Assembly: GCA_024639845.1 (NCBI GenBank)
Contig: JAHEGG010000006.1
Coordinates: forward strand, 1-64,000
DNA: 64,000 nt
Source: Microbacteriaceae bacterium
Lineage (GTDB): Bacteria; Actinomycetota; Actinomycetes; Actinomycetales; Microbacteriaceae
Direction: 5' to 3'
Numbering within the stretch: position 1 is the stretch's first letter; the number at the start of each line of letters is the position of its first letter. Below the pieces are notes generated by a model. That model did no database searches. It worked only from the letters and a program-made list of their open reading frames with translations, and was not told where the DNA came from. The position numbers were made by a program, and so were the translations under genes. Shown in pieces: positions 6,653-40,402 of the stretch.

Positions 6653-7230
6653 GCCGGTTTCTCTTGATCGGCCCTCCTGGTGCTGGCAAGGGAACCCAAG
6701 CCGCCCGCTTAGCCGAGGCATACGGTATTCCAGCCATCTCCACCGGAGACATCTTTCGTTTCAATGTTAAAAATGAAACCGAACTCGGCAAGCTCGCCAA
6801 ATCGTTCATGGACCGTGGCGAATATGTTCCAGACAGCGTAACCAACGACCTTGTTCGTGACCGTCTATCTCACGAGGATGCTCAGGCAGGGTTCCTGCTA
6901 GACGGCTACCCTCGCACCTCCGACCAGGTAAACGAACTCGACAGCATCCTTGCCGACCAGGGCCGCGCGCTAGACGCAGTCATTCAGCTAACCGCCGAAA
7001 CCGATGAGGTCGTTCGTCGCCTGCTCAACCGCGCCATCGAGCAGGGCCGCACCGACGACACCGAAGAAGTGATTCGTCGCCGTCTCGAGATTTATGAAGC
7101 CGAGACTGCACCGTTGACCAGCGTCTATGCCGGCCGTGGCCTCGTGGTCATGGTCGACGGTCTCGGCGCAATCGACGAAGTCACCGAACGCATTCGCGAA
7201 GCGCTAGACGCCCGCCTCGGCGTGAACTAG
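6649..7230 (+). CDS. adk: Adenylate kinase
   Basis: P-loop [25 protein letters not shown]. Confidence 0.98.
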
Positions 7231-7246
7231 TTTCGACTGGCCCGCA

Positions 7247-8110
7247 ATGGCTCGCGAAGAATACACACTCAAAACCATCGCCGAGATGGTTCGCATGTGC
7301 GAAGCCGGTGAGATGGTCGCCGCTGCGCTCGATCAGGTGCGGGCCGCCGTTCGCCCCGGCATCACGACTCTCGAACTCGATGCGATTGCCGAGGCCGAAA
7401 TCGTTCGTCGCGGGGGACACTCCAACTTCAAAAAGGTGCCAGGATACTCGCACACGATCTGCGCGAGCATCAACGACGAAGTGGTGCACGGCATCCCTTC
7501 GGCGAACCGCCTCTTGCAGGCGGGTGACATCGTCTCGATCGATTGCGGAGCCGAGACCTCGGACGGTTGGAACGGCGACGCGGCCATCACCGTGATCGTG
7601 CCTGGTGGCGCGGATGCAGGAGTGGAAGCATCCGTGTTGAAACGCCGCGAACAGACCTCGGCCGTTTGCGAAGGGTCGCTCTGGGCAGGCATCGCCGCTC
7701 TAGCCGGTGCCAAAAAGCTCAACGAGGTTGGCGTCGCCATCGAGAAGTTCATTTATACGTCCGGTCGCTACGGCATTCTCGAGGACTACATCGGCCATGG
7801 CATCGGCCGCTCGATGCACGAAGATCCTCCCGTTTTCAACTACAAAACCCGCTTTTCTGGCCCTTCGGTCGAGCCGGGCCTCTGTGTCGCAATCGAGCCG
7901 ATGATCACTGCCGGCAGCCCAAAGGTCAAGGTTCTCGACGACGATTGGACGGTCAGCTCCAAAGACGGCTCGGATGCTTCGCACTGGGAGCACAGCGTTG
8001 CCGTTCACGACGCTGGTATCTGGGTGTTAACCTCCTGGGATGGTGGAGCCGCGAATCTCGCCCCGTTTGGCATCGTGCCTGTTGATCCGCGCACGAGTGC
8101 CAAAGATTAA
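7247..8110 (+). CDS. map: Type I methionine aminopeptidase
   Basis: HTICASINDEVVHGIPS, DIVSIDCG, YIGHGIGRSMHEDPPVFNY, IEPMI. Confidence 0.97.
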   Translation: MAREEYTLKTIAEMVRMCEAGEMVAAALDQVRAAVRPGITTLELDAIAEAEIVRRGGHSNFKKVPGYSHTICASINDEVVHGIPSANRLLQAGDIVSIDCGAETSDGWNGDAAITVIVPGGADAGVEASVLKRREQTSAVCEGSLWAGIAALAGAKKLNEVGVAIEKFIYTSGRYGILEDYIGHGIGRSMHEDPPVFNYKTRFSGPSVEPGLCVAIEPMITAGSPKVKVLDDDWTVSSKDGSDASHWEHSVAVHDAGIWVLTSWDGGAANLAPFGIVPVDPRTSAKD

Positions 8111-8159
8111 TTAGCAAATTTCGTCGAATATCCGTAGGATTGAACTTCGGTGTTTCTAC

Positions 8160-8195
8160 ACGCAATCCCTAAATCAAGGTTTGGGTTTTTTGCGT
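8160..8195 (+). terminator. Possible imperfect terminator/attenuator hairpin upstream of infA
   Basis: ACGCAA-tCCCtAAAtcaagGTTTGGGTTTTTTGCGT imperfect inverted repeat. Confidence 0.35.
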
Positions 8196-8236
8196 GCGTT
8201 TGGAGCGCCAAACCAGCAACGTAGATAAGTGAGTTT

Positions 8237-8458
8237 ATGGCCAACAAAGACGGTGTCATCGAGATCGAAGGCACAGTGGTTGAGGCTCTACCCAACGCAA
8301 TGTTCCGGGTTGAGCTGACCAATGGTCACAAAGTCCTTGCGCACATCTCAGGCAAGATGCGCCAGCACTACATTCGTATCCTCCCCGAGGACCGCGTAAT
8401 CGTAGAGCTGAGCACATACGACCTGACTCGTGGCCGCATCATCTACCGCTACAAGTAA
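8237..8458 (+). CDS. infA: Translation initiation factor IF-1
   Basis: [42 protein letters not shown]. Confidence 0.99.
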
Positions 8459-8504
8459 AGACTTGAAAATCGGTTCGCAAGAACCCCAAACAGAAGTAAG
8501 AGAC

Positions 8505-8618
8505 ATGAAGGTTAACCCAAGCGTCAAGAAGATTTGCGACAAGTGCAAGGTCATCCGTCGCCACGGTCGCGTCATGGTGATCTGCGACAACCCACGTCAC
8601 AAGCAGCGCCAGGGCTAA
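8505..8618 (+). CDS. rpmJ: 50S ribosomal protein L36
   Basis: [37 protein letters not shown]; internal ATG of ORF 8430..8618. Confidence 0.98.
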
Positions 8619-8665
8619 ACGCTCTTTCACAGATTTACAACTGAATAGCAAAACAAGGCAACGCA

Positions 8666-8718
8666 ACATCCGAGAATATTCAAGGATGTCACCTCCGGAG
8701 AAGGCCGGAGCCCGAGGT
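8666..8718 (+). promoter_or_regulatory. Two consecutive hairpins in rpsM 5' leader (candidate leader RNA)
   Basis: ACATCC(8666-8671)/GGATGT(8684-8689) and ACCTC(8691-8695)/GAGGT(8714-8718) exact complements in a 155-nt intergenic leader. Confidence 0.4.
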
Positions 8719-8773
8719 TAAAAACCAGAGGATGCGCTGCTGAAGACCTTCTAAACAACAAGGAGAAATCCCA

Positions 8774-9154
8774 ATGGCACGTGTTGCCGGAGCCGATATT
8801 CCAGACGCAAAACGCGTCGAAATCGCACTAACCTACGTTTACGGCATTGGTCGTACTCGCTCGGTTCAGATTCTGACCGAAACCAAGATCGACAAGAACA
8901 TCCGCGTCAAAGACTTGACCGATGACCAGCTCGTCGCAATCCGTGACTTCATCGAAGGCAACTACAAAGTTGAGGGTGACCTCCGCCGCGATGTAGCAGC
9001 CGACATTCGCCGCAAGGTTGAGATCGGTTCATACGAAGGTATTCGCCACCGCAAGGGCCTCCCAGTCCGCGGTCAGCGCACCAAGACTAACGCTCGCACC
9101 CGCAAGGGCCCGAAGCGCACCGTGGCCGGCAAGAAGAAGGCGGCACGCAAGTAG
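8774..9154 (+). CDS. rpsM: 30S ribosomal protein S13
   Basis: [51 protein letters not shown]. Confidence 0.99.
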
Positions 9155-9204
9155 CCCCGGCTCTCGCGTCCACTCTGACTAGAAGAATTTAGGAGAAAGC
9201 ACAC

Positions 9205-9615
9205 ATGGCAGCACCTAAGGCTAAGGCCGGTTCGGCAGCACGCAAGCCGCGTCGCAAAGAAAAGAAGAACATCACCGTTGGTCAGGCTCACATCAAGTCG
9301 ACCTTCAACAACACCATCGTTTCGATCACCGACTCAACCGGTGCCGTTATTTCGTGGTCGTCGTCTGGTGACGTTGGTTACAAGGGTTCGCGCAAGTCGA
9401 CCCCGTTTGCAGCTCAGCTAGCCGCCGAATCGGCAGCTCGCAAGGCTCAGGAGCACGGACTCAAGAAGGTTGACGTTTTCGTCAAGGGTCCTGGTTCGGG
9501 CAAAGACACTGCAATCCGTTCGCTTGCAGCAGCAGGTCTAGAAGTTGGTTCGATCAGCGATGTGACCCCTCAGGCTCACAACGGATGCCGTCCGCCAAAG
9601 CGTCGCCGCATCTAA
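9205..9615 (+). CDS. rpsK: 30S ribosomal protein S11
   Basis: [44 protein letters not shown]...[12 protein letters not shown]. Confidence 0.99.
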
Positions 9616-36058: not shown

Positions 36059-36838
36059 ATGAAGCCCACCTTTTGGCAAGTTGCGGGCAAGCCCAAATGG
36101 CTTGCAGGTCTCGCGCTTGCCATCGTGGTTGCGATTGTGTTTTCACTTTTCGGCAACTGGCAGCTTTCGCGCAGCATCCGCGTTATTGAAGGCGATTTGC
36201 CGGGCAAGGTTGCCACCCCAATCGAAGAAGTTGCCGAACTTGGCAAGCCGTTTCTCGAGGCTCAGGCCGACCGGTTGGTGAGCGCGAACGTGTTCGTCAA
36301 CAACACGGTTTGCGCCGTGGTTGAGGGGCGACAGCAGTTGCTCGAAGACGGTTCGACCAAGGCCGGCTACTGGGTGGTTTTTGACTCCATCACCAGCGAA
36401 CAGATTCACATCGTGATTGCTGCTGCGTTTTATGAGGGCAAGGATGCCGCGCTGGCAGCCTGCCGCAAAGGCCCGAGCCTAGACTTCGACACTGGCACCG
36501 CTCTGGTCGGGCGCTATGAGCCGAGCGAGGCTCCGGCACTTCGCCTGAGCGAGGCCGCGCCGCTGTTTTCGTCGCTTTCGATCGAACAGTTGATCAACTT
36601 TTGGCCGCTAGAGAAGCCGAAGGTTTACCCGGGTTTCGTGGTCAGTGAGAAGGCGCTTCACGGCGCTAAAGACACCACCGCCGAGTCGATTGTTATTGGT
36701 GTGCGCCAAACCCAAACAGAGCTCAACTGGCTCAGCGCTTTCTATGCCGCCGAGTGGATCATCTTCTCGGGCTTCGCACTGTTTTTGTGGGGTCGCTTGG
36801 TGCAAGATGAGCGCAAGCGTATCGAGGCCGAAGGCTAA
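36059..36838 (+). CDS. SURF1-family protein
   Basis: KPKWLAGLALAIVVAIVFSLFGNWQLSR; two TM at ends; SURF1-like. Confidence 0.85.
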   Translation: MKPTFWQVAGKPKWLAGLALAIVVAIVFSLFGNWQLSRSIRVIEGDLPGKVATPIEEVAELGKPFLEAQADRLVSANVFVNNTVCAVVEGRQQLLEDGSTKAGYWVVFDSITSEQIHIVIAAAFYEGKDAALAACRKGPSLDFDTGTALVGRYEPSEAPALRLSEAAPLFSSLSIEQLINFWPLEKPKVYPGFVVSEKALHGAKDTTAESIVIGVRQTQTELNWLSAFYAAEWIIFSGFALFLWGRLVQDERKRIEAEG

Positions 36839-36915
36839 CTTCAGCGCTTGCACCTTTTGCCATGGCCTGTCCTTGGCCGGCATGAACAAACGATGATTTG
36901 TAATCGAAATGTTGT

Positions 36916-36945
36916 TGACCTGTTCCCCATATTTTAGACAAATTT
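36916..36945 (+). repeat. IS3-family left terminal inverted repeat
   Basis: TGACCTGTTCCCCATATTTTAGACAAATTT. Confidence 0.93.
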
Positions 36946-36983
36946 GGTTGGGGTAACCTCAACCTTTATGGAAGGAATATGGA

Positions 36984-37280
36984 ATGCCTAGAGCCTATAG
37001 TTCTGAATTTAAGTCTCGTGCCGTAGATATGGTTCTTGTTGAGGGGCTCCCAATTCGGGTGGTTGCTGACCAGCTGAAAATTAGCACTTCGGGCCTTGAT
37101 CGTTGGATTCGACAGTTGCGTGGTGAACGGCAGATAACTCCAGGTAAGGGTCTTGCGTTGCCTGAAGCACAGTTGGAGATCCAGAAGTTGAAAAAAGAAG
37201 TACGCCGCTTAAAAGATGAGTTAGAAATTACTCGGCGCGCAGCAGCATTGTTTGCCAGGGACAGTATTTTCCCAAAATGA
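36984..37280 (+). CDS. IS3-family transposase OrfA (HTH_Tnp_1)
   Basis: MPRAYSSEFKSRAVDMVLVEGLPIRVVADQLKISTSGLDRWIRQLRGE..LKKEVRRLKDELEITRRAAALFAR. Confidence 0.95.
   Translation: MPRAYSSEFKSRAVDMVLVEGLPIRVVADQLKISTSGLDRWIRQLRGERQITPGKGLALPEAQLEIQKLKKEVRRLKDELEITRRAAALFARDSIFPK
37271..37277 (+). promoter_or_regulatory. Candidate -1 programmed frameshift heptamer
   Basis: Zero-frame C_CCA_AAA immediately before orfA TGA; -1 shift enters orfB frame exactly. Confidence 0.5.
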
Positions 37281-38173
37281 AATACCCGGTTATTGAAGCT
37301 CTGGCCGGGCAGGGGTTTAAGGTGAGTCAGGTTTGTGGCTTCGTTGGCGTGAACCGTGCCAGCTATTACCACTGGATGCGATCAAAGTCGAACCCGCCCA
37401 AAACAGTGATTCGCCGGAGAGATGTTGCTCGTCAGGTGCTTGAGGTTCACGCGGAATCGCGAAACTCTTATGGTGTTCGGCGAGTGCGCGCTGAACTTAT
37501 TTATGGGCGTCAAATTCGTGCAAGTCACAAATTTGTTTGGAAAGTCATGCAGGAAACAGGCATAACAGGACTTCCAAATAGAAAGAAGTACCGGAGCAAA
37601 GCCAATCTGGCAACTTCAAGTGACTTACTTAACCGCAACTTCGACCACGGTGAGATCAATAAGGTTTGGGTGACAGACATCACGCAGCACTGGACTGGTG
37701 AGGGTTTCCTTTACTGTGCCGCGGTCTTGGACACTCACTCACGCAAAATAGTGGGCTGGTCTATAGATTCCAGTCAAACAAGTCAGCTTGTAACCGATGC
37801 GCTCGAGATGGCTATCCGAAGCCGCAAACCCCAAGGAACCATCATCCATTCTGATCATGGTAGCCAATTCGTATCCTGGGCCTTCAGTCAAAAAATTCGT
37901 GAAGCAGGACTGAGCCCCTCAATGGGTACGATTGGCGACGGATACGATAACGCTCCAATCGAGTCATTCTGGGGCAAAATGCAAACAGAACTGCTAGACA
38001 CACAAAAGTGGTCAACCCGTCAAGAACTAGCAGCAGCTATCTTCAACTACATAGAAGTTTTTCATAACCGACAAAGGCGACACTCAAGTTTGAGCTACCT
38101 AACCCCAGTTGAATATGAGAATGTAAAAATGTTGGCTTCAACCGAAGCCAGCAACGACAGAAAAACTGTCTAA
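37277..38173 (+). CDS. IS3-family transposase OrfB (rve/DDE integrase core)
   Basis: HTH_21 region, WVTDITQHWTGEGFLYCAAVLDTHSRKIVGWSID ... HSDHGSQF ... IESFWGKMQTELL. Confidence 0.97.
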   Translation: MKYPVIEALAGQGFKVSQVCGFVGVNRASYYHWMRSKSNPPKTVIRRRDVARQVLEVHAESRNSYGVRRVRAELIYGRQIRASHKFVWKVMQETGITGLPNRKKYRSKANLATSSDLLNRNFDHGEINKVWVTDITQHWTGEGFLYCAAVLDTHSRKIVGWSIDSSQTSQLVTDALEMAIRSRKPQGTIIHSDHGSQFVSWAFSQKIREAGLSPSMGTIGDGYDNAPIESFWGKMQTELLDTQKWSTRQELAAAIFNYIEVFHNRQRRHSSLSYLTPVEYENVKMLASTEASNDRKTV

Positions 38174-38191
38174 AAAATGGGGAACAGGTCA
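38162..38191 (-). repeat. IS3-family right terminal inverted repeat
   Basis: Reverse complement TGACCTGTTCCCCATTTTTTAGACAGTTTT. Confidence 0.93.
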
Positions 38192-38514
38192 CTGCGACTA
38201 AAGTTGGGAAGACGCTTTCTGTCACAGACCGAGCCCAGGCAAGTGGAGCGGGTGTCTATAAGTTCGTGGTCGCAGGCAAAACGTACATTGGACAATCTAA
38301 GGACGTTGCCAGGCGAATGGCGGAACATGCGCGGAGAGCAGAATGGAAGGGCTATAAAATCGAAAAGTTCAGCTTTGAACCGATGCCTGGCAAATCGACA
38401 CTAGAGCGGAGGCTATTCGAACAAGAGTTGATCGATGGAATGGGCGGGATCCCAAAAAGAGCCGGTAACAAGAAACTATGGAACGTCATCAATGCCGTAC
38501 GACCTAGGAATTGA
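38192..38514 (+). pseudogene. N-terminally truncated GIY-YIG nuclease domain protein, polymorphic-toxin C-terminal tip-like
   Basis: Frame open from the IS edge: TATKVGKTLSVTDRAQASGAGVYKFVVAGKTYIGQSKDVARRMAEHARRAEWKGYKIEKFSFEPMPGKSTLERRLFEQELIDGMGGIPKRAGNKKLWNVINAVRPRN*; first start codon (GTG 38266) falls inside the GIY-YIG motif. Confidence 0.7.
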
Positions 38515-39307
38515 CGATCTTGTCCGTGGCTGGGGCTTTGAGTTTTCCAATAGGCGGATCCACTTTTGGTTCAAGCGACCAATTCCAAAATGCTTGTTAT
38601 TTGTTCTCAGTAGCGCGGGATTTGGATTAACGTATCTCCCTTGGCGTAGTGATTTTCTTGTGAATTCTGGAAAAATTAAGTACAGGGTTGATCTGAGTGG
38701 CGAGGGGGTTCAGGCGGAGCTCGAAAGAGTGCTTGATGCCAGCCCCTTTCTGAGGTCTATGTCTATTAGAACAAGCTTTCCCCTCGATTTGACCAGTTTG
38801 GAGAACAAAAAATCATTGAGGAGCGTGTACACCTCGTCGCCTGTCCTTAAGCCAATTAACTTTGCCAAGACAAAAAAACTTCGTTTGCTGGGCTTGGAAC
38901 GAAACGTTCGTCAAGCGCGGGGTTTGCACAACCTAAAAAGACTCGATTACGTGTACCTGGGCTCGGGAGCACAGGGGAACTTGGCTGCGCTACCGAGCGG
39001 TATCAAGACCTTGATAGTTGCGAGCATCGGTAATCGTAAGTTGGATCTTTCTCGATTTGCGGATCTCAGACACTTAGAACTTGGTGGGGCGAAACATCTA
39101 AATTTTGCAGAACTTAAGCTTTCTAGAAAACTGAAAACTCTAACGCTCTCATCAGTTAGAACTATCTCCTGCTTCGATGTGTTCATCTCGGACGCCACCT
39201 GTTTACGCATCGTGAAATTGGATGACTGTGGCGATGAAGTTATTAAGTTGGTGACGCGTGGCGAGGGAACCAGATCTGTGACCGTTGTCCAATCGCCTGA
39301 CTGGTGA
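38492..39307 (+). CDS. Leucine-rich-repeat-like protein, candidate immunity protein
   Basis: ATG 38492 (MPYDLGIDDLVRGWGFEF) overlaps the GIY-YIG stop; LRR-like KKLRLLGLERN..LHNLKRLDYVYLGSG..LDLSRFADLRHLELGGAKHLNFAELKLSRKLKTLTLSS. Confidence 0.6.
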   Translation: MPYDLGIDDLVRGWGFEFSNRRIHFWFKRPIPKCLLFVLSSAGFGLTYLPWRSDFLVNSGKIKYRVDLSGEGVQAELERVLDASPFLRSMSIRTSFPLDLTSLENKKSLRSVYTSSPVLKPINFAKTKKLRLLGLERNVRQARGLHNLKRLDYVYLGSGAQGNLAALPSGIKTLIVASIGNRKLDLSRFADLRHLELGGAKHLNFAELKLSRKLKTLTLSSVRTISCFDVFISDATCLRIVKLDDCGDEVIKLVTRGEGTRSVTVVQSPDW

Positions 39308-39640
39308 TTAACCTCCCAGGCCAGCACCGAAACCGTCGTATACACCAGAGTGATTTTCAGAAATCCTCACCATTTGTTTGAGGAGCGCTTTTATTGTCTC
39401 GTCTTTAAGATCAGAAACGTGAGTTGCCGAAACCTCTACGTTGAAAAGCCCTCGCTTGGAAACCGTGACATCAAAGTTGAGCCCCATAAGAGTTTTACAG
39501 GCTTCGTCTGCGGATTGCTTGTCGTTGAACGTGAAGAAGTGGTTTACCTCTCGCGGAGTTGATAGAGAATCTTGCAACTCTTTGCGTTGTTGCAGTTGCC
39601 CGGCCCAAGCCTCAAGCTGAAAGTTCAGTTGGTTTGACAC
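39308..39640 (-). CDS. RraB-like (regulator of ribonuclease E activity B family) protein
   Basis: TPREVNHFFTFNDKQSADEACKTLMGLNFDVTVSKRG...LLKQMVRISENHSGVYDGFGAGLGG resembles the RraB fold family. Confidence 0.55.
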   Translation of the reverse strand: MSNQLNFQLEAWAGQLQQRKELQDSLSTPREVNHFFTFNDKQSADEACKTLMGLNFDVTVSKRGLFNVEVSATHVSDLKDETIKALLKQMVRISENHSGVYDGFGAGLGG

Positions 39641-39985
39641 GGTAACCTCCTGGGTCTGTCTTGAGGTTCAGCCACTGCCGATTACAGGCCTAACCAATCG
39701 GTACTTGAGATTTTAGCGCTGGATTCAGCACAATTCTTTGCGCGAGTGAATGCTAACAAACCTCGACCGAATACCGTAATGTGGCGGCCTAATCGCGTGA
39801 CGACACCAGTTTAATCTAGGAGGAATTCTGAACAATGTTGGTTGCTAGTTGAATTAGCTCGTGACGTGCCAGCGCAATATCAAACATGTAGTTGGTGCAC
39901 CTGTTGGACCCGTGAGGATGCCTCCCACAGAGAGTCACCAAGGGGACGAAGACAACAAGAGGGATCGGTGGCTTAAACTAGAGCC

Positions 39986-40402
39986 ATGCCCCAGACTTCG
40001 AGCCCAGCATCCGCGTTCACACTCAAACTGTTTCGCATTGCGTCGCTGACCACCGGAATCTTTCTGCTGACCATCACGATTCTTTATGTGATTCGATTAG
40101 CGACCAACCAAGAGCTTTGGGCGCTCGGCCCGAACGGGTTTTTGACCCTCGAAACTTTCACCATGACCGCCGACGGTTTTCGCGAGGGGCTGCCACAGAG
40201 TGGCCTCGACCTAACCTCGATCTCGCTCATCGTGCACGGCTGGCTCTATGTGCTTTACCTCTATGCCTGCTTCAGGGTCTGGACCGAAACCCGCTGGTCA
40301 TTCCTGCGCTTTTTGGTGATGGCCGCCGGTGGAGTTGTGCCATTCTTGTCATTCTTCACCGAGCGTCACTACGGCCGCCTTGCCAAGGGAGATTCAAATT
40401 AA
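39986..40402 (+). CDS. DUF3817 integral membrane protein
   Basis: [23 protein letters not shown]...[49 protein letters not shown]. Confidence 0.88.

Follow-up and report, generated by a model that had tools for sequence, protein, structure and literature searches.

A probable beheaded Rhs toxin locus with an IS3 element and an LRR-like immunity candidate in a Microbacteriaceae bacterium

A reading frame with a GIY-YIG nuclease signature lies directly against the right end of an IS3-family element in a 64,000-nucleotide stretch of DNA from a Microbacteriaceae bacterium (the window), and no start codon precedes its motif. This raises the question of which gene the frame is a remnant of, how the remainder was lost, and whether any part of the locus is still able to act. 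The locus is very probably a beheaded polymorphic-toxin (Rhs) locus, in which the IS3 element replaces the Rhs body and an LRR-like immunity gene is left. Anatomy, homology, synteny and breakpoints were read directly from the sequences, and the features are as follows.

36059..36838, plus strand: gene of the SURF1 family that marks the core-genome border on the left of the island (Pfam PF02104; synteny)
36839..36915, no strand given: remnant of the left end of the island (match to contig C9 of genome G065, stopping exactly at 36915)
36916..38191, plus strand: complete IS3-family element (inverted repeats and transposase matches), standing where relatives have the Rhs body
36916..36940, plus strand: left inverted repeat of the IS
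36984..37280, plus strand: IS3 orfA (PF01527, NF033516)
37277..38173, plus strand: IS3 orfB, DDE transposase (PF00665; NF033516, E=2.2e-86)
38167..38191, minus strand: right inverted repeat of the IS
38192..38514, plus strand: GIY-YIG (Tox-URI1-type) toxin tip from the C-terminus of an Rhs protein, a remnant of 106 codons and a stop, without a start codon ahead of the motif
38492..39307, plus strand: LRR-like cognate immunity candidate, overlapping the tip by 23 bp
39308..39640, minus strand: RraB-like gene (PF06877, E=8.7e-13), which travels with Rhs islands in the genus
39986..40402, plus strand: DUF3817 gene that marks the core-genome border on the right of the island (PF12823; synteny)

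The GIY-YIG tip and its downstream gene

The tip frame starts at 38194, where 38192 is the first base past the IS, and ends with a stop codon at 38512-38514. It extends open upstream to 38119, within the IS, and no ATG, GTG, TTG or CTG was found in frame between that point and the GVY motif. The peptide and the lack of a start before the motif are thus present as the first-pass annotation had described them. The earliest candidate start is GTG 38266, which lies within the motif, has no Shine-Dalgarno-like sequence, and would remove the first strand of the tip including the GVY tyrosine.

The motif list of Tox-URI1 consists of Y, YxG, R, [RK]xxE and N (PMC3482391), and the window tip carries all of these as GVY, YIG, R41, RLFE (E76) and N97. 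In an eight-member alignment of the window tip and seven homologues, Y31, G33, R41, H45, E76, Q77 and N97 are invariant, which bears out the arginine, glutamate and terminal asparagine named at first reading along with GVY...YIG. The Pfam profile PF01541 (GIY-YIG) detected the tip (E=3.9e-4), so that the expected profile signal exists but is weak for the single sequence, at 21.1 bits, 1.5 bits short of the curated cutoff of 22.6. The homologue L092 clears this cutoff, and a profile of the tip family matches the I-TevI nuclease domain (PDB 1mk0) with E=0.008. The same 106 residues recur in frame with RHS proteins, at 100% identity in G065 and about 81% in G057, and therefore the GIY-YIG signal is not a product of chance. 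The tip stands behind an RHS-associated core in the homologues of G065, G057 and G012, and the core model TIGR03696 gave 40.7 bits in G065 and 40.8 bits in G057 against a cutoff of 32.5. Single-sequence structure models of the tip and the immunity protein were poor (mean pLDDT 51 and 53), and a fold search with this poor tip model returned no meaningful match. Motif and homology evidence, with the weak profile signal, support the window tip as the C-terminal Tox-URI1-type tip of an Rhs toxin, whose nuclease activity is putative.

Other assignments were considered and rejected. A stand-alone nuclease or homing endonuclease was rejected, since the sequences most similar to the window tip are themselves tips of RHS or Hint proteins. 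Stand-alone GIY-YIG proteins of 390-411 aa (L097, L099) and UvrC-sized frames were put aside among the weak order-wide matches. Membership of an anti-phage defence family was likewise dropped, the GIY-YIG motif having merely a weak overlap with PDC-S14. Plasmid and viral sequences searched for the window tip gave no matches.

The reading of the locus as an orphaned toxin cassette stood as far as the tip is concerned; the cassette, however, consists of the tip plus an LRR immunity candidate that had been missed. The gene at 38492-39307 is intact, its G065 copy is identical and its G057 copy is 71% identical. It has the position of a cognate immunity gene, directly downstream of the tip on the same strand and co-conserved with it. 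Across the order, 15 related GIY-YIG tips of Rhs or Hint proteins were found, and an LRR-type gene lies directly downstream of 14 of them, a count that is not independent (the immunity genes of G039 and G019:C185 are identical), to which several immunity proteins belong that had helped to build the search profile, and which includes G213 (tip itself a short frame, no RHS in view) as well as G805 and G622 (damaged-looking tips). These partner loci come from the genus (G065, G057:C16, G039, G019:C185, G012), the family (G498, G157, G213, G294) and the order (G682, G614, G668, G805, G622). An LRR partner is not universal, however: L095 (G792; 1-1764 and downstream) is an Rhs GIY-YIG tip followed by a gene that is unrelated to LRR proteins and may resemble DUF4240. 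This sole exception lacks the usual GG...LN.iN end, and the LRR pairing is therefore assigned to one tip class.

The window immunity protein scores under the Pfam LRR cutoffs, and its homologues L008, L091 and L093 exceed the LRR_4 cutoff. Its low-confidence model, a poor single-sequence fold, matches mostly LRR proteins with E values of 0.03-0.9. Between the window and G057, dN is 0.12 for the tip and 0.20 for the immunity gene, with mostly silent differences and a dS >1 that is near saturation. These data suggest that 38492-39307 is probably a protective immunity gene for the tip.

The IS3 element and the missing Rhs body

The element between the SURF1 side and the tip is an IS3-family insertion sequence by its transposase ORFs, orfA and orfB, which are both open, and its 25-bp inverted repeats match at 24 of 25 bases. 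No target-site duplication was found in the bases flanking it, and no second copy exists in the assembled window genome.

The former state of the locus is preserved in G065, a member of the same genus. Its contig CAIZQQ010000079.1 carries an RHS core, the identical tip, the identical immunity gene, RraB, DUF3817 and guaA, and homology to the right of the IS begins exactly at window position 38192. A second G065 contig (C9) carries SURF1 followed by the same 77 bp as the window, with the match ending exactly at 36915; in this contig a further 74 bp separate the equivalent of that position from an Rhs frame that starts with TTG and has a signal-peptide-like N-terminus. The full-length ancestor that the first-pass annotation had proposed to look for between SURF1 and DUF3817/guaA was thus recovered in two parts, core and tip on one side and SURF1 with the Rhs 5' end on the other. 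The G065 gene is split over these two contigs, and other members of the genus serve as the guide to its full length and integrity. Homology to G065 ends at both IS edges, and hence the IS stands in the place of four parts of the toxin: its signal peptide, the RHS body, the core and the linker. The span that it occupies begins just 5' of where the Rhs start codon lies in the relative and extends as far as the linker ahead of the toxin domain.

Complete Rhs frames in the genus comprise 2,028-2,231 codons. G012 has the predicted architecture in a single piece, an uninterrupted 2,231-aa frame that opens with a signal-peptide-like start and contains DNRLRE, an RHS core and a GIY-YIG tip of its own; an LRR-like gene comes next. 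Since the intact Rhs genes of the genus encode about 2,030-2,230 aa, approximately 6 kb are absent from the window locus. No RHS core or Rhs N-terminus was found on any contig of the assembled window genome (G000). Lacking a start before the motif, and with an RHS body neither in the window nor elsewhere in the assembled genome, the locus fails as a functional Rhs toxin gene.

The IS appears to have caused this loss, either through adjacent deletion or through recombination between two IS copies. IS-mediated deletion of the delivery module, as claimed from the first reading, is supported by the arrest of G065 homology at both IS ends and by the lack of an Rhs body in the genome; it is the best reading. 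The delivery class had been left as RHS, Hint or WXG, and RHS is the one that holds, in a signal-peptide-bearing, WapA-like form; Hint was confined to homologues from other genera (L091, L096), and no WXG was observed.

Exchange of the island and retention of the immunity gene

The gene order guaB2-SURF1-DUF3817-guaA is conserved in relatives. SURF1 and DUF3817 are almost adjacent in most of them, and several hold unrelated insertions between the two genes (seen in L064, L066, L060 and L062). In G003 and G040 the slot is taken up by a cassette of a DeoR-like regulator with PTS-like and dehydrogenase genes; in G029 and G013 the inserts are short and unrelated.

The window is identical to G065 over 1,845 bp (window 38192-40036 and L004 905-2749, zero differences), a tract that covers the tip, immunity and RraB genes. 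The 80 bp to the left of the IS (36836-36915) are also free of differences, whereas the genes flanking the island differ from G065 by 5%, rising to about 20%. The island was therefore recently shared between two species, most simply through recombination in the housekeeping genes on either side. With G065 as the donor, or with both lineages as recipients from a third, the IS event would be younger than the exchange; if the window lineage was the donor, the IS event would have followed the handing over of the island.

Further observations were made on islands of this kind. The RraB-like gene is rare in the genus and stands beside Rhs islands at four of five sites examined (window 39308-39640; L056 6683-7000; L057 9117-9440; L136 2155-2496), the fifth (G020) not being of this kind; it could be a second immunity gene or a regulatory gene. 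Genus Rhs proteins at L132, L133, L135 and L136 share the same conserved end (...YTYPNDPVN or similar) and have hydrophobic, membrane-like tips instead of a nuclease, and a gene for a small probable membrane protein lies 3' of several of them. In L056 of G057 (7064-9423), an orphan tip stub and its LRR immunity gene adjoin a second Rhs, the core of which is almost the same while the tip is different. At L081 (G057:C154) and L057 (G057:C16) a region with a start codon, lying after SURF1, joins the RHS core directly, and this Rhs is maybe internally deleted; the contigs break there, and the apparent deletion was excluded from the evidence.

Seven loci of this immunity family were found in the genus. 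At four of them the tip is joined to an RHS core, and at the other three (window, G019:C93 and G057:C24) only a toxin stub is left, with the LRR gene open in all three. The window stub has 106 residues and is cut at the IS. The stub of G019:C93 has about 50 recognisable residues directly 3' of SURF1, and that of G057:C24 about 35 residues directly 3' of an RraB gene, neither with an IS. The place and form of the truncations differ among the stubs, and the three therefore look independent of one another. This pattern would be expected if the antidote were worth keeping without the weapon, although three cases are few and a lag in decay is possible.

The same data bear on the view that the locus is fully decayed, with the immunity gene likewise debris that is too young to have eroded. 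The 1,845 bp shared without difference with G065 leave too little time for decay to show, and selection on the orphan immunity gene of the window is not measurable because the island was so recently shared. In G019:C93 and G057:C24, however, the toxin is strongly eroded beside an LRR gene open across about 800 bp, and complete decay is considered unlikely on this account. An intracellular stand-alone toxin-antitoxin module, with the tip expressed at a low level from an unusual start or an IS promoter, is improbable. In its favour, no catalytic residue of the tip has been lost, and every base agrees with the G065 tip; in Salmonella, an orphan rhs toxin without its delivery part is expressed from a CTG start inside the gene, and its immunity protein neutralises it (PMC7043789). 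In the window, however, none of the four start codons precedes the motif, GTG 38266 sacrifices the GVY strand, and a promoter scan gave no signal above chance. The two other stubs have also lost the catalytic half, which indicates that toxin function is not what has been conserved.

A displaced cassette that came without its delivery part through Rhs tip shuffling, with the IS inserted later and nothing deleted, is in line with the orphan tips and immunity genes common beside rhs loci in other bacteria and with the two stubs that have no IS; it is nevertheless highly improbable, as both IS flanks match the full Rhs locus of G065, including the 77 bp upstream of the Rhs start, and a simple insertion would give the target duplication that is not present here. 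An assembly artefact, in which the Rhs body exists and the assembler skipped it via the IS, receives very little credence: in a draft genome of 20 contigs and 94% completeness a misjoin at the IS is possible, and Rhs repeats break contigs in relatives, but the assembly contains the IS only once, its contig of 167,710 bases has conserved synteny on both sides, and no contig supplies the missing core or N-terminus.

The beheaded locus can then be described as a sequence of proposed steps. The ancestral island between SURF1 and DUF3817 would have encoded a secreted Rhs toxin with a GIY-YIG nuclease tip, the LRR immunity protein and the RraB-like protein. The intact toxin may be exported by its own signal peptide; its tip would then pass into a competing cell and cleave nucleic acid there, and in cells that have the LRR gene the encoded protein would bind the tip. 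IS3 would then have removed the Rhs body by one of the two routes, leaving a 106-codon tip that is silent and undeliverable. Because it has no start codon ahead of the catalytic motif, the tip is taken as silent; it is most likely dead and probably untranslated. Only the LRR gene would retain a capacity to act, and it may have been kept because it could go on shielding the cell from neighbours whose toxin is intact.

Relation to known systems and meaning

WapA-type secreted Rhs toxins of Gram-positive bacteria have an RHS core, a variable C-terminal tip and an immunity gene directly downstream. The relatives studied here share with them a signal-peptide-like start, DNRLRE (G012), the RHS core, a variable tip and a downstream immunity candidate; their delivery is putative, and the window differs in keeping only the tip and the immunity gene. 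A recent example of a WapA-type Rhs toxin is given in PMC12704120.

Tox-URI1 (Zhang et al. 2012, PMC3482391) shares with the window tip its motif set and the position of a GIY-YIG/URI nuclease at the tip of an RHS protein, and it has been recorded from Actinobacteria and RHS contexts. The immunity partners of Tox-URI1 in that survey are Imm14, Imm26, Imm44 and Imm51, and LRR repeats were listed only beside T5SS toxins, whereas the window partner is an LRR-type protein. Salmonella orphan rhs-CT/rhsI pairs (PMC3967940, PMC7043789) also have a tip without its delivery part and an adjoining intact immunity gene; there a usable CTG start exists (PMC7043789), in contrast to the window tip, which is cut at the IS end with no start ahead of its motif. 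The orphan immunity genes for Serratia Rhs NADase effectors (PMC10539506) are likewise kept without a working cognate effector, whereas the window gene has its cognate toxin remnant upstream and its protection is putative. An orphan Rhs tip with an immunity gene is thus a known kind of locus. The GIY-YIG/LRR pairing may be new: the literature search found no description of it, although one may exist.

Beyond the single locus, a broader reading is tentative and somewhat short of an even chance: that the GIY-YIG Rhs tip and LRR protein form an undescribed toxin and immunity pair, that immunity may be selectively kept as a shield after repeated loss of the weapon, and that the slot may be the site at which such islands pass from species to species, through recombination in the housekeeping genes on either side. 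The locus would represent a secreted weapon caught in the course of being lost while the antidote stays, with the states before and after in sister species and an exact breakpoint. The comparison indicates that one GIY-YIG Rhs toxin class in Actinobacteria is usually paired with a family of LRR proteins, and it points to small-genome actinobacteria as carriers of secreted toxins of about 2,000 residues.
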